Origin: Isoetes taiwanensis
Lineage: Eukaryota; Streptophyta; Lycopodiopsida; Isoetales; Isoetaceae
Assembly (NCBI GenBank): GCA_021234155.1
Contig: JAJEKV010000006.1
Coordinates: 7,903,003 to 7,967,002 of the forward strand
DNA: 64,000 nucleotides
Direction of reading: 5' to 3'
Shown here: one piece after another, positions 2,248-63,664 of the stretch
Numbering within the stretch: the stretch's first letter is position 1
Layout of the letters: every line of letters begins with the position of its first letter
Notes under the pieces: model-generated
What the model was told of the DNA's origin: nothing
Seen by the model: only the letters and a program-made list of their open reading frames with translations
The model's database searches: none
Translations under genes and position numbers: made by a program

Positions 2248-2248
2248 T

Positions 2249-20886: not shown

Positions 20887-20900
20887 TTCTCCCCTCCTTA
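20887..20900 (-). promoter_or_regulatory. Element 1 polypurine tract
   Basis: The minus strand reads taaggaggggagaa directly before the 3' LTR TGTGA. This is the expected plus-strand primer site, and element 2 has the similar aaggtggggagaa before its 3' LTR. Confidence 0.85.
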
Positions 20901-22257: not shown

Positions 22258-22302
22258 ACTTTCCCAAATATTACGAATTAGGGATCGTGGCCAAGGTCTG
22301 TT

Positions 22303-23900: not shown

Positions 23901-24159
23901 TGAAGGTGACCTCCGTTTTTCACGGTCTATGTGGGCCTGGCGGACGCTAAAAACTCCATTCCCACAATAAGATCATATTTGCCAATGTCCATTAACTTTC
24001 GGCACCCAAGGCAATGGAATTGCCCGGCAACCGTGCATTTTAAAGGTTAATATGGCGCCATGAGTGTAATGCGATCTTCTTCGCTAGCTAATGTGACTGG
24101 CTTAGGTAGGGATCTCAACGTTTCCAAGCTAGCATGCACGGGCCATTCTAGGAGAAGCA

Positions 24160-25560
24160 AAATTATCGTGCACTACCCGTGTCCATCAAAATTATGAAGG
24201 GCTTCTTGTCTACTTGGCCTATTGTAGAAATAATGTAAGGCTGACTTTCAAGCGTTACTGTTTCTATAGCGGCAAGAATATGAGACGCACCATGAATGTA
24301 GTCGGGAGCCTCGTCCTCGCGGCAAGATTGGACTCCAAATCTTCCCAATCCAGTCGGCCATGGCCGGTTGAGCGATCTGGCGTGGCGTCGCGGACAATTC
24401 TGCATGAATTGTCCGGGCCTCATGCACTGCCGTAGCATGCCTTATCGGCGAGCTGTTCTCACGGCCTCTTTAGGAATGGATTTGTAAGAGGCCCGAACTT
24501 CCTTACCGGCATTGTTACGCTTATCCGTGCTAAAGGCGACTTTCTTCTCCGGCGGCCATAAGAATTGTCTTTGAGAGGGCCCCGGACTTGGCTGACGGGG
24601 TTTGTAAGGTGTGGACGACGTGGCTGCGAGTAAGGAGCAGTCAGCGGATCTTGGCTCCTTGGCGTGTCTTCCTCAAGGCTTAATGCCTTAGCTTCGCCCT
24701 CTGCCTCTTGACTTTGGGTCGATGGCCTTGACCATTCGTTTAATGGATGGGGCCAACCCTTCAATGTAGCCCTCTCTTTGCTCTTTTCTCATTCATTTCG
24801 CGCATTACAACCTCAAGCGCATGAATTGCGTCGGTGTAGGCCTGCGGACATGCCCTTCCTGTTCCAACTTTGTAGAAGGTCGAATACGTTGGCATTTTTG
24901 CGCCGCGAGGCACGTAATGCGATTTAAAAGCCTTAGCAAACTTCCCGAACTTGCATCTGCTCCTATCCGGTGTTTAGCTCGGCGTATCCCTTCCACCAAA
25001 TCACGGGCATCTCCGGTAAGGTTCGTGGTGGCGACCTTCCCCGTATCTTTCTGTCATTCCATAGGACTTCGAATTCCTTCATTTCGATCCAACCAAGATT
25101 CCGCGTTCAAGCCTCCTCTGGATTTCCCATCAAACCGAGCCAACTTCCGGTTCTTCCATATACTAGTGATGGTCGTATCAGCGGTTTTCGGTATTCCTTA
25201 TCCTTACGCCTTGAATGGTCACCATTTGTCGGCGGCGAGGACGAAGAACCCGAAGTGGTTGAATGTGAGGAAGGCGCTATCCTTAGAGGAACCGATGGCG
25301 CTTAGCATGAGTCCTCCTCAATGCAATGTACTGGGGGCTAGCTCGGGAGGAGATGGCTGTTGTGTGTGGACTCAATGGTCGCGGAGGTAATTCCGGTCCG
25401 TCCTCCTGAGTATGTGGCAGTGGATTGGTATGCAACACATAAGCCTGTAACTCGCCGAGTTGCCTTTTCATTAACATCAATTCCTGTTCAGGGGTGAGCC
25501 TACTGGCGTTGGAGGGTGTTTGCCAAGCGGCGTTACGTACACCGTCTATAGGAATCATTC
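24160..25560 (-). pseudogene. Element 1 gag and protease (frameshifted)
   Basis: The N-terminal segment 25558-25283 (MIPIDGVRNAAWQ, then a coiled region MLMKRQLGELQAYVLH) is followed by gag pieces to 24459. The zinc knuckle near 24395-24427 (CMRPGQFMQNC) has Q where the family has H and its first CxxC is incomplete. The protease signature ILMDTGS lies at about 24172-24190. The order is normal for a Ty3/gypsy polyprotein. Confidence 0.8.
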
Positions 25561-25791
25561 ATGAAAATATAAGCAGATTTACATTAATGTACAATCCCTT
25601 TTTAAATTAATCGGGACAAAAGTATATACAAACAGAAAACAATATTTGTATTTCATTCAAGTTGAGTACAACAATGGGTTGATTGATACATGGATTGAGA
25701 CAAAAGTAGGTATGATACAATGGAAACTTTTAAAGTTCTACTTGCACACAGCGTAACCACAACAACGAAAACATAACGGAAGAGACCAAGC

Positions 25792-26279
25792 CTAGGGGTT
25801 GGCGAAGGGGTCTGAGGATCGCATAGCGGTACTCTCCCGCAGCTTCCGGACGAAGTTTATAGCGTGCCGGGCTTGGACAATGATGGCTTGGTACTCCCAT
25901 GTTGGGCTGATAATCAGAAGGTTAAAGAGCCTTCGCATCGCATAAAAGAGTTGCCAAAGATGGTCGTTGGCGTCCTCGAAGGCTTCGTGCCTGGTCATAT
26001 TCCAATAGTCCCAGGTACGACACAGGGTCATCTTCAGATCCTCGAAAGCTCGATCCCTGAGGATGTTAACTATCTCCAGCCCTTTGTCGGTCGTGATAGT
26101 TTCCCACGGTGGCGGTGGTTCGGTTTCATAGCCTTCCTCCCCACACGGATATTCACCATATCTCTAGGCCATAGTCACAGTGCGGCCCCGGGATCGTCCC
26201 TCCTAACCATATCGGTGATTCTCTCCTCATATTCCCAAATGTTTTCCTCTGCAACATAGTTGGAATAAATAGAGAACAT
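25792..26279 (-). CDS. Element 1 accessory ORF d, unknown
   Basis: It starts MFSIYSNYVAEENIWEYEER and, with one internal stop at a CTG-like position (about 26176) and a frame change, ends STAMRSSDPFANP*. The C-terminal 79 codons are open and rich in aromatic and charged residues (LWQLFYAMRRLF). About 230 bases of AT-rich non-coding sequence (25560-25790) separate it from gag, so it is not simply the gag N-terminus. I do not recognise the family. Confidence 0.4.
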
Positions 26280-26515
26280 TTTGTAATTCCATTATATTCC
26301 ACACAATTCAATAATACTCCTCAAGAGAACTTTGTATTTAATAAGTAAATAAGGTACACCATTTGTCAATATGGTCCATTCAATTGCCAACCGAAAATCC
26401 CAGAACACACATATATAGATATATAAGAAAAAAACTAGCAAAACATATATATATATATACATTTTTCATAGCAAAATTATACTAGGAACTAGGCCCTGCC
26501 TCCTGATCCTTAGCC

Positions 26516-27879
26516 CTAGGAGGTGGTGGAGGCGGGCCGGTGTCGCAGCAGAGTAACCCTGTGGTCTCTTGTGGCAGCCGGCAACGTGATGCAACCTCCG
26601 GTGGATAGGCAGCGGCCAATGGGGCTGCCGTGAGGAGCTTCATGCCCATCCAAGGCGCAATGTCGACCCAAGGCGTCGGGGCAAGATCCCGTCAGACGCA
26701 GTACATGCGTAAACGCGATGCGATAGGGAAGCTTCTTGTGGCCGGCCGGTGTAGAGAGTGCACGGAGGCCCCACCATGAAGCTTGACCGGGCGCTAGATC
26801 TCGGGCTATGAAGAGGACTTGTCCGTATTTGAAGGCCCGAAAAAAGAAGCGGGTAAGATGGTTACCCGGCACTTTCCCTTCGCGAAGTCTCGGATCTTCG
26901 CCACTTCTTTATCAGTCCATGGGGACTTCTTCCTCCTTGAGCTCTGTTGCTCCTCCTTCTTGTGCGCGGGGTTATGGTATAAATCTTCACCCTCATCATC
27001 GAGTCGGAGGAGGGAACTTCCACCATCTTAATGTTTGGGACGTGAGGTCCCATAGCCGTGAAGGCATCAGTGTGCAAAGGCGGCCGGTTTCCGCGAGAAG
27101 TCGCGAAGGCGTAGTAGAGTCTCCGCCCGGCTCTAGAGTCTCGGCCGACGGAACGGAAGGAGCTGGTGCACCTCCAGGAGGCTTCGGTAGAAGTGAAGTC
27201 GATGAAATCATCCATACAATACTCCGCAAGCTCGTAGAGTACATGGTCTTTTGCGCTGCGTGAAATCCGCCACCACCGTGATGCGTCCGGATAATATCAT
27301 CCAAGAGAAGGTATTCACATACGGTGATAAATAAGCTGGAAGGCCGTCTAACCCCGACAAGCCTATAGATTGGTCGCGGCGGTGGTAACTCCTCTCGCTA
27401 GCTCTTTCCAGCGGGCAAAGTCGCCCATTCCGATATGCTCGTCATCCCCTCCTCGGAGGATTACGGCAGCTTGCCCTTCTCTCGCCGGCAAGGTTTCATC
27501 CTCAACGTATTGGTCCATGAGGATGGCTAGAGCGAAAGTAGCTTCCGAATCACTGCTGCCCCGATCTTTGGACCAGCGGTAGGTGTTTACCCCATCGGAG
27601 TTTCCCCCCGGGGACATCATAAGCATGTGTGTCCCCGCCCTAGCATCTGCCGAACTATCTCCGCTCCAAATACAAGTGGGGAGGATCCCCAGGAGGGGCC
27701 TGATGGAGGAAGCATTTCCTCCATGTAAAGTCAAGGAATCCGGCGTAGTCAGGATGCCCCACGATATTGGCAAGGAGATCTATGCGTTGGCATAGCAAAG
27801 GCTGCAAAGGTCGAAGGGAACACGGTGGATCCCATTTCTCTCCATCAAGGTACCAGGGCAGCAAGGTCGGCAAACCCAT
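26516..27879 (-). CDS. Element 1 accessory ORF c, unknown (about 450 codons, broken)
   Basis: It starts at 27879 (MGLPTLLPWYLDGEKWD) and continues through 27773-27363 in another frame (...FARWKELARGVTTAAT), 27304-26862, and 26872-26516 (HLTRFFFRAFKYGQVLFIA, KKLPYRIAFTHVLRL). The last part resembles, in general character only, the poorly defined 'putative plant transposon protein' ORFs found in plant LTR elements. It is not a histone. Frame changes are numerous. AT-rich tracts (27900-28040) separate it from ORF b, giving it the look of a separate module. Confidence 0.4.
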
Positions 27880-28552
27880 GGCACTAGAGGGGAGGAGAGA
27901 GGAAAAGAAGCGTTTAAAATAACCTTACAAGTCCCCTTTTAAACCCTTTTTTTTTTAAAACCGGCGTCGGCATTTTATTTTAAATTTAACATAAAAAAAA
28001 CATTAAACTTTTAATTCAAAATAAAAGCCTCTTTATTAATTATCAAAAAAAATATGTACAAATGCGGATCCCCCTAAAGTAGGCTAAGGTTGCTCCCCGT
28101 ATCCTACGGGCGAGGGCTAAATCCTTAGGCATTATGGTGACCCTCTTTGCGTGGATAGCGCAAAGGTTGGCATCACCAAAAGTGCTACCAAGTAGGCTTC
28201 GGTGACCTCTTGGGCGCCAAAATTACAAAAGGTCCGGAAGCGGAGATCGGTCTTAAATTGGCGTGCGATCTCCGCACCGACCTACGAAAAGGCAGCTTCC
28301 GATCGGAAGGTCCGTGGACTTCTGAAATTTGGCGGATCTCCCGCAATGCCACGATACCAGTCGAACCGATGAGGCTTCATTGCGGCCCCAGGCCCCGACG
28401 ATGTTGGCACCGTCTTAGCCCCAAAGAACCGTGGGGAGTTATCCACTCTTTCGCGCCTCCGTTCGGGCTGGTCTTCTTCCCAAAAGCCCCGACGGTCTTT
28501 AACTTATCCTTGTATTGGCCCGGCCTTATGGGCGACTCCCTTCCTCAGGAGC

Positions 28553-28991
28553 TTAGCGGTCGGATCGTGGGTTTTGGGTCGAGCCACTCCCGGATGCACC
28601 TCCTCCCACGTTGGTCCCGTGATCTTGTCGGTCCCGCTCCTCTTGTTCCAACTTCTCGCTCTCCCGAGCTCTCCTTAGGTCTTCTTGGATCTGAGCAAAA
28701 AGTTGGGCTCGCGACGGCGATTAAGTTCGGCGTGGTACCTTTTGTGGCCGAAGACCCATATCTATCGAATAGTTGTCGGATAGTCTATCTTTGATGGGAT
28801 TTCTCCCCATACAAAGCTGTTGGAACCCTCATGCCAATGGTATGGGGAACCTCAATGGCTCTACCATCGATGGCGGCAAAGCCGCCCCAGAATCTGGGCA
28901 TTACTCCCTACCGGGCTCTTTGTGTCACCGGCTCAATCTCCGGTGGTCGTCTTCCCGGCAAAACCCTAATACGATCGGCCTCCGTCGACAT
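28553..28991 (-). CDS. Element 1 accessory ORF b, unknown
   Basis: It begins MSTEADRIRVLPGRRPPEIE and ends in a charged helix (IQEDLRRARESEKLEQEERD) followed by a Gly/Ser/Thr-rich tail. Two in-frame TAG codons (in ...RAR*GVM and HQR*TIRQ) and one frameshift interrupt it. Both TAGs would be CAG if the C were miscalled or deaminated. No family recognised; the helix suggests a coiled coil. The complementary strand is also open over 28210-28794, but its translation shows no known motif. Confidence 0.4.
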
Positions 28992-29043
28992 CTTCCTCCT
29001 CCGTATGGCCTTCCTGTCGGGGGATAAAATTTGATGAGCATCA

Positions 29044-29286
29044 TTACCATATCAGGTTGTTCAACAAGGGTATATGGGGTGGCGTAGGTTCATTTGGGAT
29101 GAGGAATGGCTCTGAGAAGTGATAGACAGGATATGGAATCCTATCGTTGTTCTCAAACCTATTGACCAGCTCATCCAACAAGATGTCGATGAGGGCTGGG
29201 TCAGTAGCCATGTGCTTAGCAATCATGGCGTAGATCTCCACGATGCTCATGGTGGACGGATCCGGAGCGCTCTTGGTAATAGCCAT
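29044..29286 (-). CDS. Element 1 accessory ORF a, small protein of 80 residues
   Basis: It reads MAITKSAPDPSTMSIVEIYA and ends HIPLLNNLIW*. It is short, acidic-helical in the middle (DPALIDILLDELVNRFE) and uninterrupted. It is the first ORF after the 5' LTR and PBS. An upstream in-frame extension exists but is low complexity, so the MAIT start was preferred. No homology recognised. Confidence 0.4.
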   Translation of the reverse strand: MAITKSAPDPSTMSIVEIYAMIAKHMATDPALIDILLDELVNRFENNDRIPYPVYHFSEPFLIPNEPTPPHIPLLNNLIW

Positions 29287-30013
29287 AGCGGGTAGTGCGG
29301 CGCTGGCGGCGAAGGGGATGGCAAAGGGGCTTAAGATGCACAAAGCACAAGGGCGCAGGATCAAGGTCGGTCCGGTGGCGATGAGGGCGGCTCAGGCGGT
29401 TGGAGGCACGGAAGCAAAAGCAAATGACAGGAAATGGTTTGCTAAACGGCCAATTAACTTTTAAAATTTCAAATTTTTTTCTTATTAACTTCAAAATTTT
29501 ATTATTAAAAAAATTATACGGCGGAAATACGCGCCACATACGGTCGGGCGCCGATGGCATTATACGGGTTTCTGCCTCGACTGGGTGTCGTCGAAATGCA
29601 AGCGGCGCCCGAGTTGACCTGGCGGGCCCGCGTTGACTTCGAAGTCGGCCGGGTCGGTATGCCTTGACATTTCGGCGCCGATCTTGACTGCAAAGTGACA
29701 AAAGGCAAGCGGCGCCCGAGTTCATTTTTGGGCCTGCCCTTGACCATTTTTCGCCTAGAGTTGACTGTTTTAGGGTAATTCGAGTACGCCCAATCCAATG
29801 GAGCCATCATCTTTGTCATTTGAGCTACCCACTGGCACCTGCTAGGCCTCCAATCTTGGCCCCTCCACTTCAAAGCTACAATTTCTTAACTTAACCTAAC
29901 ACCAAGCCAAACAACAAAGAGAACTAACGACACATTGACTTAGCCTCCTCCCTAACTACCGTGCTTTACGAAGTTAGTGTTTGCTGCTGCTATGATTTCA
30001 ACAACAACGAAAT

Positions 30014-30029
30014 CACGGCTCGATACTGC
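30014..30029 (-). promoter_or_regulatory. Element 1 primer binding site
   Basis: Directly after the 5' LTR end (CCACA) the minus strand reads gcagtatcgagccgtg. It resembles the initiator-tRNA-Met complement TGGTATCAGAGCC with the CAG triplet collapsed to CG; element 2 shows the same CG form. Confidence 0.7.
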
Positions 30030-31637
30030 TGTGGACGCCCTCCAATATATACGACCCTCGGACGTATACATACGGGGACTTTCCCCTCCCATGGCAATCC
30101 TCTCACCATGAGCAGGGCCCTCCGTCTATTTCGGTCCATCTATGAAATGAGGCCCAAAAGAAGGACACGAAGGGGTCATTCGGCCCACGCCTTCAGTGGG
30201 ACTCCTACGTCGCGGAAGCATGAATACAAGGGTTAGCACACAGCATGAATATACATAAATAACCACCACGAAGGGTGGCGCATCCATCTAATATACCAAC
30301 GGCATAGAATATGCATCTAATCCTACGAAAACACCCAGAACCCAGGTTCTACCCCAGCTCAGACTCCCGTGAGGATCGACTGACGGCTGAGCCTCAAGAG
30401 ATCAACAGACCGAGTCTTGGCATGGCGTTGGCTGGCATAGAACATTGGCTAGGGTTGTCCACTCCATCCGCCCCTCCTGTGCACACTTTGCAGATGGGTC
30501 AATTCATGCTATGGCTTTGCTATAGCCTTGGGAGACGCAAACTCGGGGCATCACCCTACGAGCCTACTCGAGTTCATGGCGCCTGGTCCGATGAGGCAGG
30601 TCGGGAGGCGTCCCCTTCGAGAATCACAGTGGTTCCATGGATGAGCTAGAGAATACGTGCGCATCAGCGACCCCGCATCCGTGCCGACTTACTCATCCTA
30701 AATCTACTCAAAGTGCATGGTGCTCCATAACGGATCACACCACTACACCTGTGGAGTGTCGGACCCATACCCGCCCTCAACGTGACCCGGCTATCAGGCC
30801 TAGCCCTTTGTAGGAGTCTCAGGAGCCTTGTATGCTCATGCAAGACCCCACCCCTCATGTCACCATTGTGTTCCTTGTCTGGTGCTAAGCCAGACCATAG
30901 CATCTAGGACCCGGTGGGTTCTTGTGCACATGCCGCATTTAATGGGACTCTACAGGGCGCTATCTAGGAGCATACTACAATACACGGTTCAGAGGCCTCT
31001 ACCCCCGTAATCCCCCGTTTGAGTCGATTAAACAAAGAACTAACAATCCATCCTTTCAGAGTAAGACCAAGAATTGAATATAAAGAGAACTTGTTTGTAC
31101 AATCAAGGGTTAGTTTCTATGATTGATTCACAAAGAGAACAGAGAGAGACGAACACAACCAAGTGTTATCTAGAATTCACATAGCCACCTACCTGAATTC
31201 TGGCTGGACTCGTTTCCATGGGGCGCCTCCATCTTCTGGGAATTGAGAATTCAGCTGTTACTTCACAGGGATGACTGTTACGGTGATCTTCTGCAACTGT
31301 ATGATGGCGCTCAGCTCCTGGCCTTCCTTGGTCGATCTTCAGGAGTCAATCCCAGGGATAGGGGTCAAGTTGGCATCCAAACTTGGCAATCCCCATGCTA
31401 CCCAATCGATTGGGGCAGGTGGCGCCTTCCCAAATGGTACTTAGCCTAATTTCCTAGGTTATAGGTTATTATTATTAATGTGTTAAATTAGCATAGCTAA
31501 TTTAATCCTTTTTAAGGTAACCCCCTAGGTTGCAATTAAGTTCCCATACCCCCATGGTAGCGTACCTTTAGGGAGTGACGTGCTTGTATTTGTACGTGTC
31601 CCGTATAGTAGACCGTATAAATACGTGGAACGTCACA
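30030..31637 (-). repeat. Element 1 5' LTR
   Basis: It pairs with 19285-20886; on the coding strand it begins TGTGACG and ends CCACA. Differences from its partner are largely CAG versus CGG or CG, and CTG versus ACG (for example cccagaacccagg here, cccggaacccggg there). The host CAATG duplication follows at 31638-31642. Confidence 0.92.
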
Positions 31638-34222: not shown

Positions 34223-35904
34223 TGTGACGTTCCAGCCACGATATATCGCCGGGACGATACCGCATCGCCTCAAATCACGCATTACACGCCACTCCACCGA
34301 CGGTACGCTTAGGCGTGTAGCCAGGTGAGTAGCCCTAGGGGGCAACTTGCTAGAAATATGTGCAACTATTAATGTGCACATTTTCCAATGTACACATTAA
34401 TGTGGGCACACATTTCCAAGTGGACACTTCATGCCAAGTGGGCCACACCCATAGGTGCAATTAATGTGCACATTTTCCAATGTACACATTAATGTGGGCA
34501 CACATTTCCATGTGTGCACATTTGGCCACCTAGCCCTTAAAGGCAAGTGGGCCCATTTCCAATTATCCCACATGCCAAAAGGGGATAATTGGAAACCCTA
34601 GCCAACCCCCTTGTCTATATAGGGTAGGAAACCCTAACTAGCCCAATTTTCGATTTTAGGGCTTTAGAACTCTGTTTTGGCTGCCTCAACAGCCTAAAAC
34701 CGCCCCCGCGAACTCTGGGAGAATTGCATCCTTAGTTCCCCTTAATTCGGCGCCTCGGCCAGGATGGTCGAGCTCAGTCGGGGAGGAGCCTCTCAAGGAT
34801 CAGTATTTGGCCAATTAGATAGTCTAAACCCTATTTTAGTCATTGAATCAAGAAGGTTTAGCCTATTAGATTGGCCATAACAGCCCTCTAGATCTCTAGA
34901 TAGCAGATCCTAACTAAAGAACCTAACTCTATGTTGTAGATTAGATCTAGTTCTTTAGTTCTCTCTGCGGAAGTATATGGATGATGTATCTCTATGAACT
35001 CCTTGTATTGGGAAGGGGGTAGAGACCTAAAGCTTTGTAGTTGATGCTCCTAGAGTAGCCTCTCTAGCATAATTGTAGATTCGCCTGTGCACAAGAACCA
35101 CACCTGGTTGTGGGTGAAGGGGCGGACCGGGCTTAGAAGGAGGTTCGTGTTCTGACTCTTGAACGATCCCTATGGTGTGTTAGTGCTACCAGGGATCATT
35201 GTGACTAGGTCTAATGGCTTACCACTGAGTGCGGGTAAGGCATGGGCTCGACACCCGTGAAGTGGTGCACACTTTCCAGTGGGTTGGGTTCACCGAATAC
35301 GGGCAAAGTGGCCCTCTAGTCACCTTGAGTCAGCATGTAGACCCTCTGGAGGGAGTGATCCCCTACCGCCCCATCGAACCGGGAGATGGAACCCGTGAAT
35401 AGCCCTTTTGGCTATGCATCCGGCGGGCTACAGTCAGGTCCCAACACTTTTCAGCCTACTCTGCAAAGTGTGCACAGGAGGGGCGGATGGAGTGGACAAC
35501 CCTAAGCCATGTTCATATGCCAGCCAAATCCATTGCCATGAATTCTGCCCCGCAAAGAACTCGAGACCCAAGCCGTCAGCCATCCCCTTGAGTCTGAGCC
35601 TTGGGTAGGATTCCCTATGTGATGTGCTGATCTTTGTCTATGCAGATATGTGGAGGACCATCCTTCGTGATGGTCATATGATGTTGATGTATGTGCTACT
35701 CGACATGTATGTTTACGCCCGCAGCCTAGGTAGGCCCCGAGGGGAGGGGGGTGCAATGACCCTTCCACTCTTCCCACGGAACCCCGCCACGCTGCAAAGT
35801 GTCATGTGGAGGGCCCCTGTATTAGCATGGAGCTGGTATGGGGATGAACTCCTGTTTGTGTATACGGTGAGGGCACCGTGATAATGACAGTAGGGGACGC
35901 CACA
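34223..35904 (+). repeat. Element 2 5' LTR
   Basis: It begins TGTGACGTTCC and ends GCCACA. A TATA motif (ctatatagg) lies at about 34614-34622. A 58-base block (attaatgtgcacattttcca...) is repeated at about 34368 and 34463 in this LTR and likewise in the 3' LTR (46027 and 46136), so the internal duplication predates insertion. It differs from the 3' LTR mostly at CAG/CTG sites. Confidence 0.92.
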
Positions 35905-35907
35905 AAG

Positions 35908-35918
35908 TGGTATCGAGC
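35908..35918 (+). promoter_or_regulatory. Element 2 primer binding site
   Basis: tggtatcgagc lies three bases after the 5' LTR. It equals the initiator tRNA-Met complement TGGTATCAGAGC minus the A of CAG. Confidence 0.85.
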
Positions 35919-36108
35919 TATGTTCTTGGAGACCAAGAGCAAAAGCATCGCCATGTTCCCAAGAGCACTAACTTGATAGGATCCTTAAACCTCGAAAAAT
36001 GGGAAAATTTTTCTCATTTTTGTAGTTTATGCTAAGCTAGTAACAGTTAAAATGAATAGAAATGTAAAAAGATTAAAAATTAATGAGCCAACATCCAAAA
36101 GTAGGGTG

Positions 36109-36361
36109 GTCTCACACGTCACGCCAGATGATTTCTACATTCTAGAAATCGGGCTGGGCGCAACGTATGAGACATTCAGCTTTGACACCAAAAACTTGTA
36201 AATTACAGTAAAATACCTTGATAATTCTAATTTTAAGCTAAGAATTAGTAGATTTAGCATGTTACATGTTAATTTAATAGTGGGCCCCACCATGTCTCAC
36301 ACGTCCGCGCCAGACAGGTTTCTAGATTCTAGGAATCGGGTCGGGCGCAACGCGGTGAGAC
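36109..36361 (+). promoter_or_regulatory. Two copies of a 65-68 bp imperfect palindrome upstream of the H3-like ORF
   Basis: Copy 1 is 36109-36173 and copy 2 is 36294-36361. Each begins GTCTCACACGTC, has an inner GATTTCTA / TAGAAATC arm pair and ends CGGGCGCAACG...GTGAGAC, so nearly the whole unit can pair with itself. Copy 1 contains ACGTCA, the plant histone-promoter hexamer. The GGGCGCAA core is reminiscent of, but not a textbook, E2F site. The same palindrome recurs twice before the next ORF. Whether it acts as DNA (operator) or RNA (hairpin) is unknown. Confidence 0.8.
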
Positions 36362-36434
36362 CTTGCTTGATTAGGTGTTTTAGGTGCTCTAGACAACCCA
36401 AAAGGTAGTTTAAAAGTTGACCTAAAATTAGCCC

Positions 36435-36442
36435 TATAAATA
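36435..36442 (+). promoter_or_regulatory. TATA box before the H3-like ORF
   Basis: tataaata lies 112 bases upstream of the MARTKQ start and 74 bases after palindrome copy 2. The same spacing logic is seen at 38418, which argues that it is a real core promoter internal to the element, separate from the LTR promoter. Confidence 0.55.
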
Positions 36443-36543
36443 GACCCCGGACCCCTCCCATTTTTCCTGTTCTTCCCTAGAACTTCGCCAGGATCGGCAA
36501 GGCGATCTTCCGGGCTTTTAGCTCCGATCGACAAACCGAAAAG

Positions 36544-37831
36544 ATGATGGCCCGCACAAAGCAGCATCGCAAGGAAGCCTAGCCGGTTGATCCTCCGGGG
36601 CCGCCCGCCTCTTTCACAGATTCTTCGGGAACGCTTTCTCCACGACGCACGAATCTTCGCCGAAGCGAGGAAGCAGGGTCGGACCGAGCCACTATCGTGA
36701 GCTCTTGGAGGATGACCGCCAGATGTCATGAACCGATCCTCACTTTAAATTGCGCGGAAGAGGAAAGAAGCGGCAGCCAGCAGGAGCAACACCAGAGGAC
36801 GCCAACCCACGTGAAGAAAGTAGAGGGAACAAAGGACCCCATCAACAGCCCAGGAGCAAACCCCAGTGCCGAGATCCACCCGCAGGAGGAGCAGGAAGAG
36901 AGGAGCAACCACCGAACTCACCCCGGAAGAAGAGGCCGACCTCGCACGCTTCGTCCACAAGTACGAAGCCAAGGAGCGCCGCCGGGAGCAGAGGACAAAG
37001 AGTCGGGAAGACGACCCGACTACAGCCAGCGGACCCAAGAAGAGGAGGGCCAAAGCCGTAAAGGCAGGCAAGAGGAAGCTGGTAAAGGTCGGGAAGCGAG
37101 CCGAAGGTCCCGTCATCAACGAGCCGTCGGGAGGGGAGACCCCGCCCACCACCGACGACTCGGATGGAGACTACGTGCCGGGCGCAGACGGGGCAAGCTC
37201 TTCAAAGCCCCCGGTCGTAGAGGAAGAGGTCCCGGAGCAGACAGCCCAAGAAGGGGAGGAGACCGGACAGCTAGCGAAGCCCCCACCTTTTCCGACGTGG
37301 GATAGAGTCAAAGCCCCGCGGCCGCAACGGGAAGCATATGTGATAGACCCCCTAAAGGTCTATCAGAAGAGGATCAGGGAACACAACGCTTATATGGCAA
37401 GGTGGGAGGCGTACAACGCATATTACCAGGAGCACCGGGTGAGAACGATTGAAGGCGGACACCCGACGAAGAGCCAGACACTGAAGCCCCCTCCACCAAA
37501 ACCCAAGCCTCCCCGAGCACCAGGGAAGAAGCGGAGCAAGAAGAAGAAGCTGGAAGACAGGGCACTCAAGGAGATCCGCCACTTCCAGAAGAGTTACGGA
37601 CTCCTGATTCCCCGGGCGCCGTTCCAGCGTTTGGTCCGCGAAGTCATACAAGAATACAACACAGACATGCGCGTGACCGACGAGATGCTGCTGTGTTTAC
37701 AAGAGGCGGCCGAAGCGCACATAGTAAAGCATTTTGAAGATTCAACGGCCTGCACGGTGCACGCGAAGAGGGTTACCCTCATGAGGCAGGATATGTATCT
37801 TGCCAGGCACATCAAGGGAGAACGCCCTTGA
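36544..37831 (+). CDS. Histone H3-like protein with long N-terminal tail, encoded by element 2
   Basis: The last 90 codons (37559-37828) are a complete H3 core: alpha-N helix [42 protein letters not shown], and the end [10 protein letters not shown]. Roughly half of the core residues match plant H3 by eye, with no insertion in loop 1 (so not the usual CENH3 lengthening) and conserved HAKRVT. The frame is open without stops from 36866; before that an acid/base-rich tail includes basic NLS-like runs ([23 protein letters not shown]) and proline-rich linkers. The proposed start at 36547 reads MARTKQ, identical to the H3 amino terminus, but a TAG 11 codons on and a frame change before 36866 separate it from the long frame; the TAG could be a misread CAG. 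Predicted nuclear, nucleosome-binding. It has its own TATA box and palindromes. No introns seen. Confidence 0.9.
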
Positions 37832-37973
37832 ACCTTGTAAATAACTGAAAAATTTTGTTAATATAAAGAAATTTTTGTGTAAATAAAGTGTCAAACCCTG
37901 TTTAAATAGGTTAAGATATCGATCCCTAACTTTTGTTTTGATTAAATTGGAGCTTTGAGCAAAATTGAGACGA

Positions 37974-38240
37974 TGTCTCACACGTCGCGCCAGGACAGAT
38001 TTCTAGATTTTAGAAATCGGGCTGGGCGCAACGTGTGAGACCATACCCAAAAATGCCCAAAACAGCTCCAAATCGAACAAGTAAGGGGTCAATTCTGCCT
38101 AACTCGATGAGTTTAGTGGAATTACAGCCTTAGATCACTTAAATTGAGTGAGCCTAGCCCAATTGGGACCCATGTCTCACACGTCGCGCCAGGACAGATT
38201 TCTACATTTTAGAAATCGGTCTGGGCGCAACGTGTGAGAC
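37974..38240 (+). promoter_or_regulatory. Two further copies of the palindrome before the second cargo ORF
   Basis: Copies 3 (37974-38041) and 4 (38174-38240) are almost identical: GTCTCACACGTCGCGCCAGG at the left and GGGCGCAACGTGTGAGAC at the right, with GATTTCTA and TAGAAATC inside. They share more with each other than with copies 1 and 2. They lie between the H3-like stop codon (37831) and the TATA box at 38418, repeating the layout of the first unit. Confidence 0.8.
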
Positions 38241-38417
38241 CCCGTACCATTTCTTCACCAAATGATCTCCAAACTGTACAATAGGTTCAAGAGTCGTTCT
38301 TAGCATGCTCAAACTCTAGAAATAGTCTTCAAACTTGCAATTGCATCCCTTAATAGATCAGAATTGCCTAATCTCAGTAAAATCTAGGTCATCCAAAAAT
38401 TAGGGTTTTCCCCTTTC

Positions 38418-38425
38418 TATAAATA
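38418..38425 (+). promoter_or_regulatory. TATA box before the second cargo ORF
   Basis: tataaata lies 123 bases upstream of the ATG at 38541. The surrounding text ('ctataaataagtcccccatt') parallels 'ctataaatagaccccggacc' at 36434, so the two promoters look like duplicates. Confidence 0.5.
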
Positions 38426-38540
38426 AGTCCCCCATTTCTCATTTGGCACCCTGCAAATTTGCTCCCCAATCGCTAGGGCGTATCTTTCAGCCCCCGAGGC
38501 GCTTACAGATCCGTTTGATACTCCCTTCCTTGCTAGATCA

Positions 38541-40085
38541 ATGGCCACTGCTGATTTCGGGCGATGGTACAGCGCCAGTGCCCATGCTGCTGAGGCGGAT
38601 GTCAACGACATCTTCCAAGTCTTTGTGAAAGAAATCGACATCCAAGCTACGCTAAATGCAACCCCAGCTTATAGGCAGGTGCTAGCAGAATTTCAAGCTA
38701 GGGTAGGACCCTCCCTTGTTCAAGTTCCCCCTTGCATAGGATACTTTGTTCCCCGCCCATCCCTTCAAGCAGCCTTGGGCGACGTCCCCAACATCGCCAA
38801 GTACTTGACTAACAAGGCGCAGAGACTACCTGACTACATGGTCCTGACAGCCAACAGGACCAAGTACTTCTCTTACACAGCAGCCCTAGCCATCTTCTTA
38901 TCCCACCGCGCCGAGAACCCGATGGGGGCAACCTCTATCCCTCCGATGGAGGTAGACCCCATAGCAGTCCAAGCAGAAGAGCGTATGCCGCTGCAAAGAT
39001 CAACAGAACGAAGCAAGAGAGGATGAGGAGGAGTCGGACGACGGCGATACACCCGAGTCGACTCGGATCGAAGAAACGGCCAAGCGTAGCAGGAGCTGAT
39101 CAACTTCGAAAGCAGACCCGCAGGCATCGTGAGTCGCCTTCACTCGCTAGGCATCACAAGCCTAGCCCCTATCATCATTAACTGAGAGGAGTATCTACTC
39201 CCGACATCCGTAACCTTCCCAATGCGTGGAGAGGGAGCTCGTGTTGGACTAATCGCTCCACCAATCAGCGGTAAACCGACATGGGACTTCATCGCCGGGG
39301 AGCCTCGAACTTTCCACCGCAAGTGAGGGAGGCCGACACCTGCCACGGGGGAGACGACCCCGATATCCGTGCCTACAAAGCAGCATAAGGCAAATGATGG
39401 ACGAAAGGAGCCGCCAACGTAGGGAGGAGTTCCTCGCCTCCAAGAACAGATGGGGATCCGTGGAAGACCACGAAGCATCCTAATGCCGAAGTCCTTCGAC
39501 ATCACCCCCGCCAAAAGGAGAAGGAATCGACCTCGGGAGGCTCGACCGCGACGATTGAAGACTACAGGAGCTCACCGGGTTGAGGTCGACGAGCACGCCG
39601 GGCGGCACGAGCTCGAGGCCAAACAAGCCGAGAAGCTTCGGCGACACACAACGGCCAGTCGCCGTGTACTACTTGCCGCCGGGCTGAGGGATGGGAGAAT
39701 AGCGGTAATTCACCGCAAGTTCAGTCCCGAGGCTTAAGAAGGAGGTTCATGCTGATTGCACTCAAAGCTCGTGCATGCTCGAATAGCAACAAATGTCGAC
39801 TATGCTGTCCTCGGGTCAAGAGGGCAATGGCACTCGACCTCTTCGACTTCGCCATACCCCACCGACGCCAGCGAGATTAGCAAAGGATCGGCGCCCTTAC
39901 ATCCGACGCAGTGGTAGAAGACCTGGTGAGAGCCATCCAGTGGAGGCTCATCGGCAAAGCATCATCGGGAACTTGGGTCACCTTCGGTAGGGACGGCCCA
40001 AGTTAAGAAGTTTTTGAAGACAACCCGCCTTACCAAGGACATTTCAAGACTAGTTAGACTCTTGATCCCGGAGACTTTTGTATCT
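38541..40085 (+). CDS. Second cargo ORF of element 2, unknown, with acidic segment
   Basis: It starts MATADFGRWYSASAHAAEAD and stays open to 39026. In the adjacent frame it continues with a strongly acidic run (EDEEESDDGDTPE) followed by basic AKRSRS near 39090. Further protein-like pieces in changing frames extend to about 40085, where an AT-rich stretch looks like a 3' untranslated region. It precedes and is distinct from gag, which resumes near 40270. No family recognised. Acidic stretches occur in histone chaperones, which would fit beside a histone, but that is only a suggestion. The frame breaks often fall at CAG/CTG. Confidence 0.45.
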
Positions 40086-40269
40086 AAAATATTATATGAT
40101 ATATGAATATAAATCCTATTGCACTTTAAATGCTTTGTTGATGTATTTTTGCCCCACAACTATACCAACAAACATAAACAATGCAAGAGAACAAATGAAA
40201 CTAATCATATAGCCATGAATTGCTTGTGTATGCAGCTAGAGGCCTAAAACGCTAGGGGAACGATTAACC

Positions 40270-41510
40270 GCGAGATCTTATAGAAGAGCAAACCCCACCT
40301 GCACCACCCCCCGCAAGGAACCTATTTGAAGATATGGAACCCATGACCCCAGAGGAGGAGATAGCCCGTGATGAGGACCGGACTGGAGCAGATAAAGGCA
40401 TTACCGTCCGCCGTAAAGCGTGGAGTGGGGTCGGGTGGGCAATGCTCGGCTTTGCCGCAAGCATCAGCCTCTGAGGGCAGGAAAAGACAAGAAGAGGAGC
40501 AAGAGAAGGAGATCCTCCAGCCCGAATCTTCCGACTCAAGTTCGTGACTCGTGACTCGGACCAGGAAGAGGAAGAATGTGCTCAAGAATCCAACAGATGG
40601 AAGGCGAGGAATACCCTTAAGGACGACAAAGAGATACCGTGGTCTCCTCGACTACCGAAGAAGGTAGATTCCGCGACGGGCAATGTATGGAAGGCCCGGA
40701 ATCGAACAGGGCTCGTGGGGAGAATGTGTCGATTGGAAGCAGAGGCATGGCTGGACGAAATGAGCGAAGGCACGAAATGCTTATGGCATGAAGGATAAGG
40801 ACAAAGGCAGAATTGCAACAGCCAACTTGAAAGGAGCCGCCGGATTTGGTGGAAGGGTTATGCAAAGGCACATGGCTTAAGCAGGATGCTTGTAAGTTCG
40901 AAAAGTTTGCTAAAGCCTTCAAGCGCCATTACGCCCGAGGGAACATAAGTCCAAAGATGATGCAAAGCTTTGGCACAAAGCTGCAAAACAAGGCAACAAA
41001 TCACCCGTAAATATACAGAGGAATTCATGAGGCTAAGGTCAGACGCGCCGGGTTGGGAGAGAAGCATGCAGTAGAAAGCTATATTGAGGGGCTGAATGAG
41101 GAGATCCGCAAGCTTGTGAGGGCAATAAACCCTAGGACAGTATCAGAAGCGGAATCCAAGGCTATAAGCTTGCAGGGTCGACCTCGTAATAGCGGGCGTA
41201 TGCAAAGAAGATTTCCGTGATAAAGGCAAGGCGACAGAAGCTATAGCCCTGTGGCAGCCAATCGTGTCCAGCCTAGAGCCCCATATGGTGGGAACCGGGG
41301 AAACAAAGCAGAGAAGAAGCAGGTGTCCTTCAAGGACAAGCAGGAGGGGTCAAACTACTCCAAAGCAGTGCGATCCTTTTTGCAGGCAATGCCCAAGGAA
41401 AAGAGGCAGGAGTGCATAGAAAAGCAGTTGTGCTTCAGGTGCTTCCAGCCAGGCCATAGGACAGCAAACTGCCCCTACGTCATGAGTGCAGCTCTAGCGG
41501 AGTTGGGAGA
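40270..41510 (+). pseudogene. Element 2 gag with zinc knuckle (frameshifted)
   Basis: Pieces include MEPMTPEEEIARDED (40334), a capsid-like stretch encoding WWKGYAKAHGLS and YTEEFMRLRSDAPGWE (about 40850-41060), and a clean CCHC knuckle CFRCFQPGHRTANC at 41431-41472. The order and spacing to protease are standard for Ty3/gypsy gag. Confidence 0.85.
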
Positions 41511-41790
41511 TTGGGGACGATCACGGACGACGACGGCGAAGAGGCCCGCGACTACATTCAGGGTGAGTGTCATATCTTTGCCGCAATAGATACGGAGCAA
41601 GCAGAGAGCCAGTATAAGGTAATTTCCACAATAGGGAAGGCCAAGGCTAAGTCCTTCATAGTCTTGATAGACTCAGGAAGTAGCCATAACTTTGCATCCC
41701 CCAGAATGGTTCAGATGTTGAAGTTGAAGCCGCTAAAGTCAAAGCCAAGACCCGTTGTTTTAGCAAGTGGTGCAAAGTAGGCGCGCGGCG
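41511..41790 (+). pseudogene. Element 2 protease
   Basis: The aspartic protease signature FIVLIDSGSSHNF is centred at 41670-41684, preceded by ECHIFAAIDTEQAESQYKVI, the counterpart of element 1's ASHILAAIETVTLESQPYII. It is open for 89 codons, then a frameshift follows near 41780. Confidence 0.88.
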
Positions 41791-42129
41791 GCAAGAGAAT
41801 TAACTTTCGACATCGACTTGCGTGCATTAATATCCGTGATGGGGGCGAATAATGGGCATTGGCAAGTATGACTTGATCATAGGAATGGAGTACCTTGGGC
41901 CTTGGGGGCCATTATCGATCGCGGAAAGCGGAAGGTGACCTTCCCAACGCCGACGGCAAGATCATTGAGATAACAGTAAGGAAGTTGTTCCCATCATGCA
42001 AAGTGTATGTCTTCTAAACGGTTTGTTCAAGTGCATCAAGAGTGAGCAAGTGGCATACATCTTCAAGCTTGAGATTAGTGAGCGGAATCGGAAGGAAGCA
42101 AAGAAGACAACGCGGCTCAACAAGTTGCC

Positions 42130-43110
42130 GGGCAAGTAGCTCAGCTGATCACGGAGTTCCATGATCTCTTTCCAGATGAGATCAAGCAGCTCCCTCCTTA
42201 TAGGGGAGTTGAGTGCGAGATTGCACTCGAACCGGGAACAAAGCCAACGAGCAAGGCTCCATATAGAATGACAACGCAGGAATTGTCGGAGCTAAAGAAG
42301 CAGTTGCAGGAGCTGCTTGACCTAGGTTTTATTAGACCTAGTGTTTCGCCATTTGGAGCGCCCATTCTCTTCGTTAAGAAGAAGGATGGCAGTCTAAGGA
42401 TGTGCATAGACTATAGGCAGTTGAACAAGCACACCATTAAGAACAAGTACGCAGCCCCCGCATCGGATGACTTGATGGATCAGCTCCAAGGTGCAAAGAT
42501 CTTCCAAAATCGACTTAAGGTCGTTATCATCGATCAGGATAAAGGAAGAAGATATCCATAAGACCGCCTTCGTAACGCCAGATGGGCACTACGAAGTTCA
42601 CGGTGAATGCCTTTCGCTTATCGAATGCCCCCGCAACGTTCATGAGGCTCATGAACGACATCTTCAGGGAGTTTTAGACACCTTTGTGATTGTTTTCTTT
42701 GATGACATTTTGGTGTATAGCAGATCCCTTGAAGAGCACGTACAACACTTGAGAAGAGGCCGAGAAGTTGAAGAGGCACCATTTTGCACGCCAAGTTGTC
42801 GGGCGCCACTTCAAAAGAGAAGGTGGAGTATCTAGGTCATGTGATCTCAGCAGAAGGCATCTCGACGGATCCCGCAAAGATTGAAGCCGCCATTCGCTGG
42901 CGGGCCTACCAAGAATGTGCATGAAGCCCGAAGTTTCCTCGGCCTAGTGGTACTACAGGTGAAGTTCGCCAAAAAACTTTGCCAAGATAGCAGCCCCGGC
43001 TAATGACTTGACGCTGGCGGAGAAAGTGAAAGATTGGGCAGAGCATTGGCACAAGAAAGCCCAAAGCTGTGGTTTGAATTGTTGAAGGAAGCTTTAACAA
43101 CAGCCCTAAG
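42130..43110 (+). pseudogene. Element 2 reverse transcriptase (frameshifted)
   Basis: [20 protein letters not shown] and [15 protein letters not shown] (42300-42440) and the catalytic FFDDILVYS (about 42695-42721) are clear. Breaks occur near 42520, 42770 and 42900. Sequence similarity to element 1's RT is high. Confidence 0.92.
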
Positions 43111-43560
43111 CCTTTAACTCCCGGACCGGGAGAAAGATAAGCTTGTAGCAACAGATGCGAGTAAGATAGCTACTGTGTGCAATGGTTTATGCAAGAAGAG
43201 CGTGGTAGCGTGATGATTCCGTGAAGATGAACGACGCCGAACGCGCTTACCCCACGCACGATCAGGAATTGCTTGCGGTTGTCGTGGCATTAAGAATTTG
43301 GAGGCACTACCTTTGGGAAGGAAGTTCCACTTGGATACGACCACCACCGAGCCTCCAATATGTATTCACGCAACCACACCTCAACCTGAGGCAGAGAAGG
43401 TGGATGGAGTTCCTTGAAGAGTACGACTTTGATATAGTCTACAAGCCAAGGAAGCTCAATGTGGTAGCGGACGCTTTCAAGGCATCCTCGACAACTAGAG
43501 TACATTGTAATGCAATTTCGACGCTCCAAATGACTTTGGTAAGAGGATTGAAGAGTCCTT
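43111..43560 (+). pseudogene. Element 2 RNase H domain
   Basis: The KMNDAERAYPTHDQELLAVV and YDFDIVYKPRKLNVVADAF blocks lie in 43221-43490. The N-terminal part around 43140-43220 (ATDASKIA-type) is frameshifted. Confidence 0.88.
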
Positions 43561-44770
43561 GCCAACGGATGTGGATTTCGTGGAAGTATGGGCAAGCCTT
43601 TCTAAGGAGGCTAGAACAGATAAAGAGCGGGAGGCCTTCAAGCATTATAAGAAGGAAGGCAACCCGTTATACCATAAGAACAAGTTGTGCGTGCCAATCA
43701 TCGGGGTGTAAGGAAGTTGATCCTCCATGACACGCTAATAACAACAGCCCAATAGCCGGCCATGCGGGATTCATGAAAAACATATTTCAAAGTGCGCAGC
43801 AGCCTATTATTGGCCAGGAATGAAGAAGCAAATAGCTCGCTACATCAAGGAATGTCAGCTATGCCGCCAGACGCGAGCAGCGACCGAATTCGTGGGCATT
43901 AGAGCCATTAGCGGTGCCAAACGCTAAGTGGGAGGTAATCAAGATGGACTTCATCACGGGACTCCCAAGGACAGCAAGAGGGGAAGGATGCCTTGATGGT
44001 AGTGGTGTCACAAGTTGTCTAAGATGGCACATTTTGTACCTTGGGACCACGATACATCTACTATGGATACAAAGCTCTTCACCAAAGAGATCTCGTGCTT
44101 CATGGCATGCCAAGGGAGATCATCTCAAACCCAGGATCCGGTTCATGGAGCTTTGGCAAGACCTCTTTGGCGACAATCCGCATTTTAAGCTATCCATGAG
44201 CACGGCATATCATCCTCGACGGATGGCCGACGAGCGGACCAACAGATTTTAGAGGACATGCTATTTAAACTATGTCCGAATAAGCAAAGTATGTGGGAAG
44301 AATTTATTCACTTGGTGGAGTTTGCATACAATAGCACCAAGCAGAATCATCCCAAATGTCGCCGCTTTATGATCAATTACGGCCATCGATTGCCTAACTC
44401 CGGATACTTGGCACAACCCCGTCAAAAGTGGAAGTTTCGGCAGCCAGATGTTGGCCGATATGCAGCAGCCTTGTGGAAGAAGTTCGAGGTTATCCGCTAG
44501 CAAAAGAAGTCGCGGTAAGAGCATCGCCGACAAGCATCAAACAGTAAGAGAGTTCAAAGTTGGAGATGATGTTTGGCTCAAGATCAAGGTGAAGCAGGCG
44601 AAGCTCAGGATCGGGAATTGCAAGAAGCTTGCTCCAAGGTGGGCTGGACCTTTCAGAATAGTCGAGAGAGTAGGTAATCAATCCTACAAGTTAGACTTGC
44701 CAGCACACCTAAAGATTCATAAGGTCTTCCACGTGAGTCTGTTGAAGAAGCATACTCCAAATCCGCATTT
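43561..44770 (+). pseudogene. Element 2 integrase
   Basis: The zinc domain is at about 43730-43880 (IAGHAGFMK..., ECQLCRQT). The catalytic core starts NAKWEVIKMDFITGLP (about 43920) and runs through STAYHPRRMADERTNRF (44200-44250). The C-terminal GPY/F module is at 44560-44740 (APRWAGPFRI, LKIHKVFHVSLLKKH). Several frameshifts are present. Unlike element 1 the core is retained. Confidence 0.88.
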
Positions 44771-45052
44771 TAAGTCTTGGATTCTCCAACGTTGTTGGAA
44801 ATGACGGAGGAGCAGCTGGAAATAGTTCCAGAATTGATTCTTGATAAAGCTTTCAAGAAAACGAGGAGATCAGAATTCCTCCAGTATTTGGTCAAGTGGA
44901 AACACTTACCAGTGGAAGACGCGACGTGGGTACTTAAGAAAGATTTAGTAAAGCAGTATCCACAGTTTATGGAGCAATGGGACGGCAAGGTCATCTCCGA
45001 AGAAATCGGCTCAGGCATGTCGATTTGTGTAGGTAAATTCTGGTGTAGTTAA
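44771..45052 (+). CDS. Element 2 C-terminal chromodomain
   Basis: The open segment contains FLQYLVKWKHLPVEDATWVL followed by KKDLVKQYPQFMEQW, a clear chromodomain (aromatic Y...W...W arrangement). This places the element in the chromoviruses, whose integrases use the chromodomain to target marked chromatin. It is separated from the integrase module by a frame change near 44775. Confidence 0.9.
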
Positions 45053-45885
45053 GATTAATCTACGCATGCAACCTATGCTTAGTATGGGTCGCATGCGTTG
45101 TTACCGATGATGGGACCACTACGGTGATCTCTAGGGCGTGGTGTAATGTCAATGTAGGCATGACCAAGCTTCCGCTTTTGGGCGAAAGTGGAAGGTAGAT
45201 TAGAAAGTCTACTCGCCCCACTAAGTAGACGACCTCGAGAGAAAGGAGGTCATGAAGGAATGCATTGATAGGGAAAGCACCTTTAGCCCCATATATGCTT
45301 TGATAGGAGGAATCTATCCTTCGGCGCCCCACGAGAAGGATATCCTCCACGCTGGGCAACTAGAGGTGTAGGCATGAGCGGCATATAGGCATATAGGCGC
45401 TGTCTCCGCGGCCATAATGGAAGATTCACCCTCTTCCTACGCCGGGAGATTAGCCATGCATCCATGTAGATAGGTGGGGTGGTCACCATATAACCAAAAT
45501 TTTATTTAATAATTAAATGGTACTAACGTAGTGTCGAGCGCCAAGAGAGAGAGCTCGGGAGGGCAAGGAGGTCAAGATGAAGACTTGCAACACAAATTTT
45601 GTTGGAATGTGTTGCAAGGAATGAAGAGTGCCTCAGACGTTAATTTTAAATTTTGATAAACTTAATTGTAATGTTAAGTGAATTTTGGAGTAATCTGTTA
45701 GTAATGTTGTGAATTGATAAGTTATGTTATAATATAATAATGTGATAATGTCATACAAATATTACCTTAAGGTAATTTTAATAAATGTGTAGGAATTATA
45801 GTAGCGATCGTATGTATCAAGTTGTTGCAGGTTAGGTTGATCCCAAGGTGGGGAGACCCACGATGTCCGGGACAAAGATCATTTC
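45053..45885. other. Element 2 3' untranslated region
   Basis: No motif-bearing frame is present. The sequence becomes AT-rich after 45600. An extra polypurine-like 'aaggtggggaga' at 45846 precedes the functional-looking one at 45886-45898. Confidence 0.6.
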
Positions 45886-45898
45886 AAGGTGGGGAGAA
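45886..45898 (+). promoter_or_regulatory. Element 2 polypurine tract
   Basis: aaggtggggagaa lies immediately before the 3' LTR TGTGACG. Confidence 0.85.
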
Positions 45899-47561
45899 TG
45901 TGACGTTCCAAAGACAAAGACGCCGTGGGGCGATACCGCATCGCCTGCCCACGCCGCATTACCCACCCCAGCTGACGCGGTAACGCTTAGCGTGTAGCCA
46001 GTGAGTAGCCCTAGGGGGCAACTTGTTAGAAATATGTGTAACTATTAATGTGCACATTTTCCAATGTACACATTAATGTGGGCACACATTTCCAAGTGGA
46101 CACTTCATGCCAAGTGGGCCACACCCATAGGTGCAATTAATGTGCACATTTTCCAATGTACACATTAATGTGGGCACACATTTCCATGTGTGCACATTTG
46201 GCCACCTAGCCCTTAAAGGCAAGTGGGCCCATTTCCATTATCCCACATGCCAAAAGGGGATAATTGGAAACCCTAGCCAACCCCTTGTCTATATAGGGTA
46301 GGAAACCCTAACTAGCCCAATTTTCGATTTTAGGGCTTTAGAATTGCTTTGGCTGCCTCAAGCAAAACAAACCGCCTCCCCTTCTTGCCTGGGAGAATTG
46401 CATCCTTAGTTCCCCTTAATGAAAGGCCTCGCCAGGATGGTCGAGCTCAGGTCAGGAGGAGCCTCTCAAGGATCAGGTATTTGGCCAATTAGATAGTCTA
46501 AACCCTATTTTAGTCATTGAATCAGTAAGGTTTAGCCTATTAGATTGGCCATAACAGCCCTCTAGATCTCTAGATAGCAGATCCTAACTAAAGAACCTAA
46601 CTCTATGTTGTAGATTAGATCTAGTTCTTTAGTTCTCTGTGAAGTATATGGATGATGTATCTCTATGAACTCCTTGTATTGGGAAGGGGGGTAGAGACCT
46701 AAAGCTTTGTAGTTGATGCTCCTAGAGTAGCCTCTCTAGCACACCGTAGATTCGCCTCAGGCACAAGAACCACACCTGGTTGTGGGTGAAGGGCAGGCCG
46801 GGCTTAGAAGGAGGTTCGTGTTTCGACTCTTGAACGATCCCTATGGTGTGTTAGTGCTACCGTGGATCATTGTGACTAGGTCTAATGGCTTACCACCGAA
46901 AGCGGGTAAGGCATGGGCTCGACACCCGTGAAGTGGTGCACACTTTCCGGTGGGTTTCAACACGGGCAAAGGGCCCTCTAGTCACCTTGAGTCAAAGCAT
47001 GTAGACCTCGGAGGGAGTGATCCCTACCTGCCCCATCGAACCGGGAGATGGAACCCGTGAATAGCCCTTTGGCTATGCATCCCGCGGGCTAAGGCCAGGT
47101 CCCAACACTTTTCAGCCTACTCGCAAAGTGTGCAATGAGGAGGGGCGGATGGAGTGGACAACCCTAAGCCATGTTCATATGCCGCCCAAATCCATTGCCA
47201 TGAATTTCGCCTCAAAGAACTCGAGACCCAAGCCGTCGGGCCATCCCCTTGAGAGTCCGAGAGCCTTGGGTAGGATTCCCTATGTGATGTGCTGATCTTT
47301 GTCTATGCAGATATGTGGAGGACCATCCTTCGTGATGGTCATATGATGTTGATGTATGTGCTACCGACATGTATGTTTACGCCTCCGGCAGCCTAGGTAG
47401 GCCCCGAGGGAGACGGGGTGCAATGACCCTTCCACTCTTCCCACCGAACCCGCCACGTTGCGGTGTCATGTGGAGGGCCCTCAGATAGCATGGAGCTGGT
47501 ATGGGGATGAACTCTGTTTGTGTACGGGTGAGGGCACCGATACCCAGTAGGGGACGCCACA
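45899..47561 (+). repeat. Element 2 3' LTR
   Basis: It pairs with 34223-35904, with the same TGTGACGTTCC start and GCCACA end. It carries the same duplicated 58-base block and TATA motif (about 46289). The host sequence resumes at 47562 with acagg. Confidence 0.92.
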
Positions 47562-49295: not shown

Positions 49296-49663
49296 AATCC
49301 TGCTCTGAACTATAATTCAATGGCTTTACATTATATTCATATATGTCCACAGATTCAATGGCTGAAATTCAATGGCTTTACATTACATTAACGTATGTAT
49401 ACAGATTCAGCGGCTGAAATTTTATACCTGCTGAGCAGCTAGTTACAAGGGAGTGTGCCGAATTTTCATTGATGTGGACATCATATAGAACAATTTGCAG
49501 ACTAAACCAAGCTCAGGGGTCATGGGCACAGGATGTCTTTCACAATAATCAGAAATTTTTTCAAATATTGCCTTAAAAATCAGTCTTCCTTGAGGCAGAA
49601 AGGCATTTCTCAGTATCAAAGAAGCAAACCGGTTTCGTCCAATAATATTCACATGATTCTTCA

Positions 49664-63661: not shown

Positions 63662-63664
63662 TTA

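Follow-up and report, generated by a model that had tools for sequence, protein, structure and literature searches.

Analysis of a 64,000-nucleotide stretch of the Isoetes taiwanensis genome (assembly GCA_021234155.1, contig JAJEKV010000006.1, positions 7,903,003 to 7,967,002; hereafter the window) shows two related families of LTR retrotransposons, A and B, in which each family carries a histone H3-like gene apparently preserved by selection, and suggests that such elements may alter DNA packaging through their own histone. We favour, with a probability of about one half, the view that a lineage of lycophyte chromovirus-type elements acquired an H3 gene and kept it as an accessory gene, and that the element-encoded H3 enters nucleosomes and alters chromatin.

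The family A copy in the window is, on sequence grounds, an old chromovirus-type (Ty3/gypsy) LTR retrotransposon with an H3 gene located between the 5′ LTR and gag (Table 1). Its LTRs are about 91-92% identical (K2P divergence of 0.082), and no clear target-site duplication is visible in the flanks of this old copy. The initial annotation described a complete LTR element, and the LTR pair, a PBS-like site, a purine-rich stretch 5′ of the 3′ LTR and the domain order all support this architecture, while the reverse transcriptase (RT) is assigned by eye only, the stretch 42082-42558 giving no Pfam match. The Pfam matches occur in the order zinc knuckle, RNase H, integrase zinc finger, SH3_Tf2-1 and chromodomain, such that RNase H lies 5′ of the integrase and the chromodomain is at the integrase C-terminus. 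The protease, recognized by eye in the window, was matched as RVP_2 in another family A copy (L061, the same locus as L029), which matches the window element at 83% along 8.4 kb. No hAT domain was found among the Pfam matches of the window stretches scanned, which display LTRs and retroviral-type pol domains instead. The window also contains 1-1.5 kb blocks that are repeated at 79-95% identity (2247-6260, 49659-52779 and 62747-63666) and head-to-tail duplications at 14018-15095 (about 542 bp, 98%) and 59878-60608 (about 365 bp, 94%).

Table 1. Features of the family A and family B elements in the window.
Feature	Position	Strand	Basis
Family A element	34223-47561	+	LTR pair
Family A 5′ LTR (TGTGACG...CCACA)	34223-35904	+	LTR comparison
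PBS-like TGGTATCGAGC, putative, after 5′ LTR	35908-35918	+	sequence
Palindromic repeat pair, each ~70 nt (36105-36174 and 36292-36361), 5′ of H3 gene	36105-36361	+	
TATA box TATAAATA, 113 bp 5′ of ARTKQ start codon	36435-36442	+	
Family A H3-like gene, disrupted in window copy	36545-37831	+	stop at 36581
H3-like ORF, open part, 335 aa	36824-37831	+	
H3 core of family A gene	about 37559-37828	+	
Second palindromic repeat pair (37973-38042 and 38172-38241), 5′ of ORF2	37973-38241	+	
TATA box TATAAATA 5′ of ORF2	38418-38425	+	
Family A ORF2, disrupted in this copy, without Pfam match, approximate end	38541-40080	+	
gag-like region (approximate start) containing a zinc knuckle	40280-41589	+	
pol remnant: protease and RT (by eye), RNase H, integrase, chromodomain	41460-45052	+	
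Chromodomain ORF of window element	44774-45049	+	
Family A 3′ LTR	45899-47561	+	
Family B element	19297-31637	-	same window
Family B 5′ LTR	30045-31637	-	LTR comparison
Family B H3 fusion (MAITKS... N-domain and H3 core), broken here, ends approximate	28080-29286	-	
Family B ORF2, broken in window copy, ends approximate	26480-27880	-	
Family B pol, 67% nucleotide identity to family A	22003-23689	-	
Family B 3′ LTR	19297-20886	-	

The proposal that an ORF of this element ends in an H3 core free of indels was borne out. The core of ORF 36824-37831 matched PF00125 in a profile search (E=4.4e-27), residues 207-334 matched H3.3 in the PDB (E=1.6e-28), and the family A core aligns with host H3 without internal indels. 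The window copy of the gene is broken; a frame opening with MMARTKQ at 36545 stops at 36581, and the later ORF lies in the same frame. The over-long tail ascribed to the protein is real in that a long linker is present, but open family A copies begin with H3's own MARTKQTARKP, followed by the linker and the complete H3 core. In 12 of the 29 loci for which the core frame was cut, a single open frame spans both the ARTKQ start and the core, and MARTKQTARKP is identical in 15/15 starts matched by pattern, with variants in L025 and L030. The tail keeps the H3K4 and H3K9 positions and has a proline at position 10, and thus K9 methylation would be possible but the switch normally provided by phosphorylation of serine 10 would be unavailable. 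A structure model of the last 184 residues of the family A protein, which is only moderate (mean pLDDT 66, pTM 0.29), displays H3-like helices preceded by a 34-residue helix; Foldseek matched it to nucleosomal H3 with low TM-scores (0.27/0.45). Linker residues 95-315 yielded 1202 protein candidates, none at E ≤ 0.01.

The family A core is 56-60% identical to host H3 (26 cores) and is altered at R63, K79, K122, R129 and the 87-90 site, while R69, R72, R83, E97, H113, K115, R116, T118, D123 and L126 are unchanged in all 26 family A and all 15 family B cores; the unchanged residues are nucleosome positions. Residues 87-90 are EMLL in family A, FAIL in family B and SAVL, TAVL or HAVL in the host loci. 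This segment is described in section 9 of PMC9145170 as a chaperone site, with SAIL and TAIL present in viral H3s.

Searching the assembly (1,658,258,908 bases in 1110 contigs) with the family A H3 scored at least 120 places, with E values from 1.7e-219 to 5.9e-145, of which about 80 by hand count have no stop inside the match; the 12,536 loose first-look candidates do not represent a copy count. An LTR end lies upstream of the H3 gene in 28 of the 29 other loci selected through H3, and ORF2 lies downstream in 27. All 15 host H3 loci lack element flanks and are matched only by the H3-coding DNA of family B. A survey independent of H3, in which the LTR-leader junction was the query, returned 40 full-size matches and one short piece. 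By hand comparison nine of the 40, the window included, were already in the H3-selected list, and from the other 31 we fetched 12 loci, every one of which contains the H3 gene, always with frameshifts or stops. Given that it adjoins the LTR in 28/29 H3-selected loci and is present in 12/12 junction-selected loci, the H3 gene is, as far as the genomic copies tell, a fixed part of family A. The initial annotation had viewed the ORF as cargo of the element, which is supported by its position between LTR and ORF2 and by its presence in other family A copies; the refuting case named there, an ORF missing from all other copies, does not hold. Chance similarity, or an adjacent host gene, was rejected on the basis of the core matches, the LTR and ORF2 flanks and the junction-selected loci. 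Many small indels are seen in the H3 gene of the junction-selected copies (L081-L092), some of which may be assembly error rather than decay.

The H3 gene and ORF2 are each preceded by the TATA box TATAAATA, which is located 108-114 bp 5′ of the H3 start in 23/23 family A loci with a recognizable start (of 30) and 121-123 bp 5′ of the ORF2 ATG in 16/16 loci with a recognizable ORF2 start; on the plus strand of the window element the motif occurs at these two sites only. Four palindromes of about 70 nt, two ahead of each TATA box, are all present in 22 of the 30 loci, with three in the other 8. The window palindromes are near-perfect and are candidate cis-elements or RNA hairpins.

Values of dN/dS (NG86) for the core in the H3-selected copies, which were chosen by protein similarity and hence give lowered values, were 0.032-0.05 in family A and 0.031-0.036 in family B, compared with 0.02 for host H3; across open copies the core dS is about 0.5 and the dN about 0.02. 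The ART tail displayed 0.06-0.08 in open frames and 0.35 over all 29 loci, shifted frames included. Within the same H3-selected copies the PFPTW module gave 0.05 and the family A acidic stretch 0.24-0.33. ORF2, which was not the basis on which these copies were chosen, has a dN/dS in its N-terminal part of 0.056 in family A (n=13) and 0.076 in family B (n=8), and of 0.336 in the middle of the family A protein (n=7 copies). The 12 junction-selected, decayed copies gave 0.45 in the core and 0.51 overall. Our reading is that the active lineages would be constrained and that copies decay after insertion.

In family B the first gene comprises an N-terminal domain fused to the H3 core, and the ARTKQ tail is absent. 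A search with canonical H3 scored 150 places, of which 15 are host loci (96-98%), leaving 135 others. Fifteen of these others were inspected (L046-L060); 14 match the ORF2 DNA of family B, and the 15 cores are 86-89% identical to host H3. Two family B copies, that of the window and L062 (also listed as L058), show the H3 gene linked to LTRs. The ORF2 proteins of the two families are homologous, the longer pieces aligning with an hhalign probability of 94.5 (E 7.5e-8; the score of 60.4 compares with 26.5 for the best of 100 column shuffles) and the C-terminal part with an E of 4e-4 (score 33.7, against 21.4 in 60 shuffles); an initial comparison of short pieces was not significant (E 0.062). 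Since ORF2 is common to both families, the H3 slot probably predates the A/B split, while the occupants of the slot possibly derive from separate H3 captures or from the replacement of one H3 by another. A relationship between family A ORF2 and the family B N-terminal domain was unsupported (hhalign E 0.33 and 0.38), and a SANT-like stretch in the window family B copy proved to be a shifted-frame artefact, as copy L062 reads differently. An AlphaFold model of the ORF2 domain from one sequence was uninformative (pLDDT 42.7).

The phylogeny places the family B core with host H3 and the family A core apart, on the side of the centromeric H3 (CENH3) with support of 92/90 and 87/78, which is not significant; C_P0182, for which the pattern cut no core, was left out of the 87/78 tree. 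A single clade of A and B was not rejected (AU p of 0.076 and 0.096). We consider it unlikely that the H3 of family A is a captured CENH3 that forms CENH3-like chromatin. This grouping, together with 14 of the 37 family A differences from host H3 that equal one of two plant CENH3s, points in that direction, but besides the insignificant support two of the three CENH3 sequences are provisional, loop 1 of family A has the canonical length rather than the longer form of CENH3, and no host CENH3 was found in a genome search swamped by family B and host H3.

Incorporation of an element-encoded H3 variant into nucleosomes is the most likely function suggested by the genomic data. The protein would be made while the element is active, would pair with host H4 through the preserved core and would be placed in nucleosomes, where the changed tail may alter the chromatin of the element or around sites of integration; in our view the element would most probably gain by evading, or by exploiting, H3K9-based silencing. 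Several lines of evidence argue for this view: the Pfam and PDB matches of the core, the 12/12 junction-selected loci, the ORF2 common to both families, a core dN/dS of 0.03-0.05 compared with 0.24-0.34 in the family A acidic region and ORF2 middle, the identical MARTKQTARKP starts, the unchanged nucleosome positions and the fixed distance of the TATA box. That the element builds modified nucleosomes, as the initial annotation suggested, would fit the conserved core and the low dN/dS in open copies. The suggested involvement of the chromodomain is weakened, as one of three aromatic cage positions is kept by eye in ORF 44774-45049, consistent with a type II chromodomain; PMC3059260 describes this type as lacking the residues that read methylated H3K9. 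This chromodomain also counts against the nucleosomal variant, as do the decay of the junction-selected copies, the selection of low-dN/dS copies by protein similarity, the family A changes at R63, K79, K122, R129 and 87-90, the lack of an ARTKQ tail in family B and the moderate fold model.

Other roles have to be weighed against a nucleosomal variant. The protein might act mainly outside nucleosomes as a soluble decoy that starves silencing by binding H3 chaperones, methyltransferases or readers of the tail; the exact ARTKQTARK start of family A on a long charged linker and the change of the 87-90 site in both families are in keeping with this, but conservation is strongest in the core instead of being limited to the tail, and family B has no such tail, leaving it a minor possibility. 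Rather improbable, in our estimation, is a packaging or pre-integration factor, a histone that would condense the element cDNA or anchor the integration complex. Its basic linker, the retained DNA-contacting core positions and an integrase with a chromodomain in the same element would suit such a factor, but the gene has its own TATA box apart from gag-pol, no gag fusion was seen and the H3 fold normally requires H4. We regard as highly improbable that a captured host gene is simply copied along as a passenger without benefit: most junction-selected copies are broken, with a core dN/dS of 0.45, and hundreds of H3 copies on hAT elements of Pseudocercospora fijiensis have been inactivated (PMC6710886), but the dS and dN of the core across open copies, the retention of the gene by two diverged families and the conserved spacing of its promoter argue against it. 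A more elaborate form of the nucleosomal reading, which we offer tentatively and think doubtful as a joint claim, is that an ancient lineage has its own histone toolkit, in which a promoter-equipped H3 (that of family A possibly from a centromeric histone) and a partner ORF2 form nucleosomes specific to the element, which would resist silencing or direct integration.

Plants place silencing marks on retrotransposons, with the H3 tail as substrate, and an element with its own H3 would act on this substrate and not on the enzymes. Such an element supplies numerous natural H3 variants shaped by selection on the element, makes it testable whether mobile elements build their own chromatin, and is relevant to the way in which elements with a chromodomain locate or evade heterochromatin. 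H3-fusion families of a like kind in other genomes, such as the ENA family described next, would make the histone toolkit a recurrent strategy, if that reading is true. The last 105 residues of family A matched 157 proteins; among the 120 listed, one is named CENH3 and 98 clusters (of P0121-P0240) fit a hand-made pattern of an unnamed ENA family. In this ENA family a new N-terminal part (PPINRNLP..LDWTPAQK..) is fused to the H3 core, and some of the remaining listed clusters have another N-terminal part (LYPIHKK..). The large number of its 90% clusters resembles that of a repeat family in a different eukaryote, which may likewise be carried by elements. Relatives of family C were found at eight loci in genome contigs, matching the H3 part, and none was confirmed in viral contigs.

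The literature searched, which excluded most subscription journals and all preprints, contained no retroelement-encoded histone, and the word 'histone' is absent from the main text of the Isoetes genome papers. The nearest precedent is the fungal hAT DNA transposons with H3 (H3L of Pyrenophora tritici-repentis, and those of Pseudocercospora fijiensis and relatives), which, according to PMC3538342 and PMC6710886, likewise carry and multiply an H3-like gene. They are TIR DNA transposons with near-identical recent or RIP-inactivated copies, whereas the Isoetes elements are LTR retrotransposons, old, in two diverged families and with long fusions. Plant LTR elements with an additional ORF, such as an orchid Gypsy element with an m6A demethylase domain, Retand, Grande and PvRetro13, resemble the Isoetes elements in carrying an extra ORF besides gag-pol in many copies (PMC7264820 and PMC9289625); a histone is not named as such an ORF in these main texts, the word occurring zero times in the former and twice, in other contexts, in the latter. 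In Isoetes, by contrast, the extra ORF sits between the 5′ LTR and gag. The single H3 or H4 genes of viruses (bracovirus H4, xenomavirus H3, phycodnavirus H3) each encode one host-like histone, several of them tail-extended, and are thought to enter host nucleosomes (PMC9145170, section 9); these belong to DNA viruses, unlike the Isoetes retrotransposons, and the terms 'retrotranspos-' and 'retrovir-' do not occur in the main text of that review. CRM chromoviruses share with the Isoetes element a chromatin-related integrase tail (PMC3059260), but they target centromeres via the CR motif, whereas the Isoetes element combines a type II-like chromodomain with an encoded H3.
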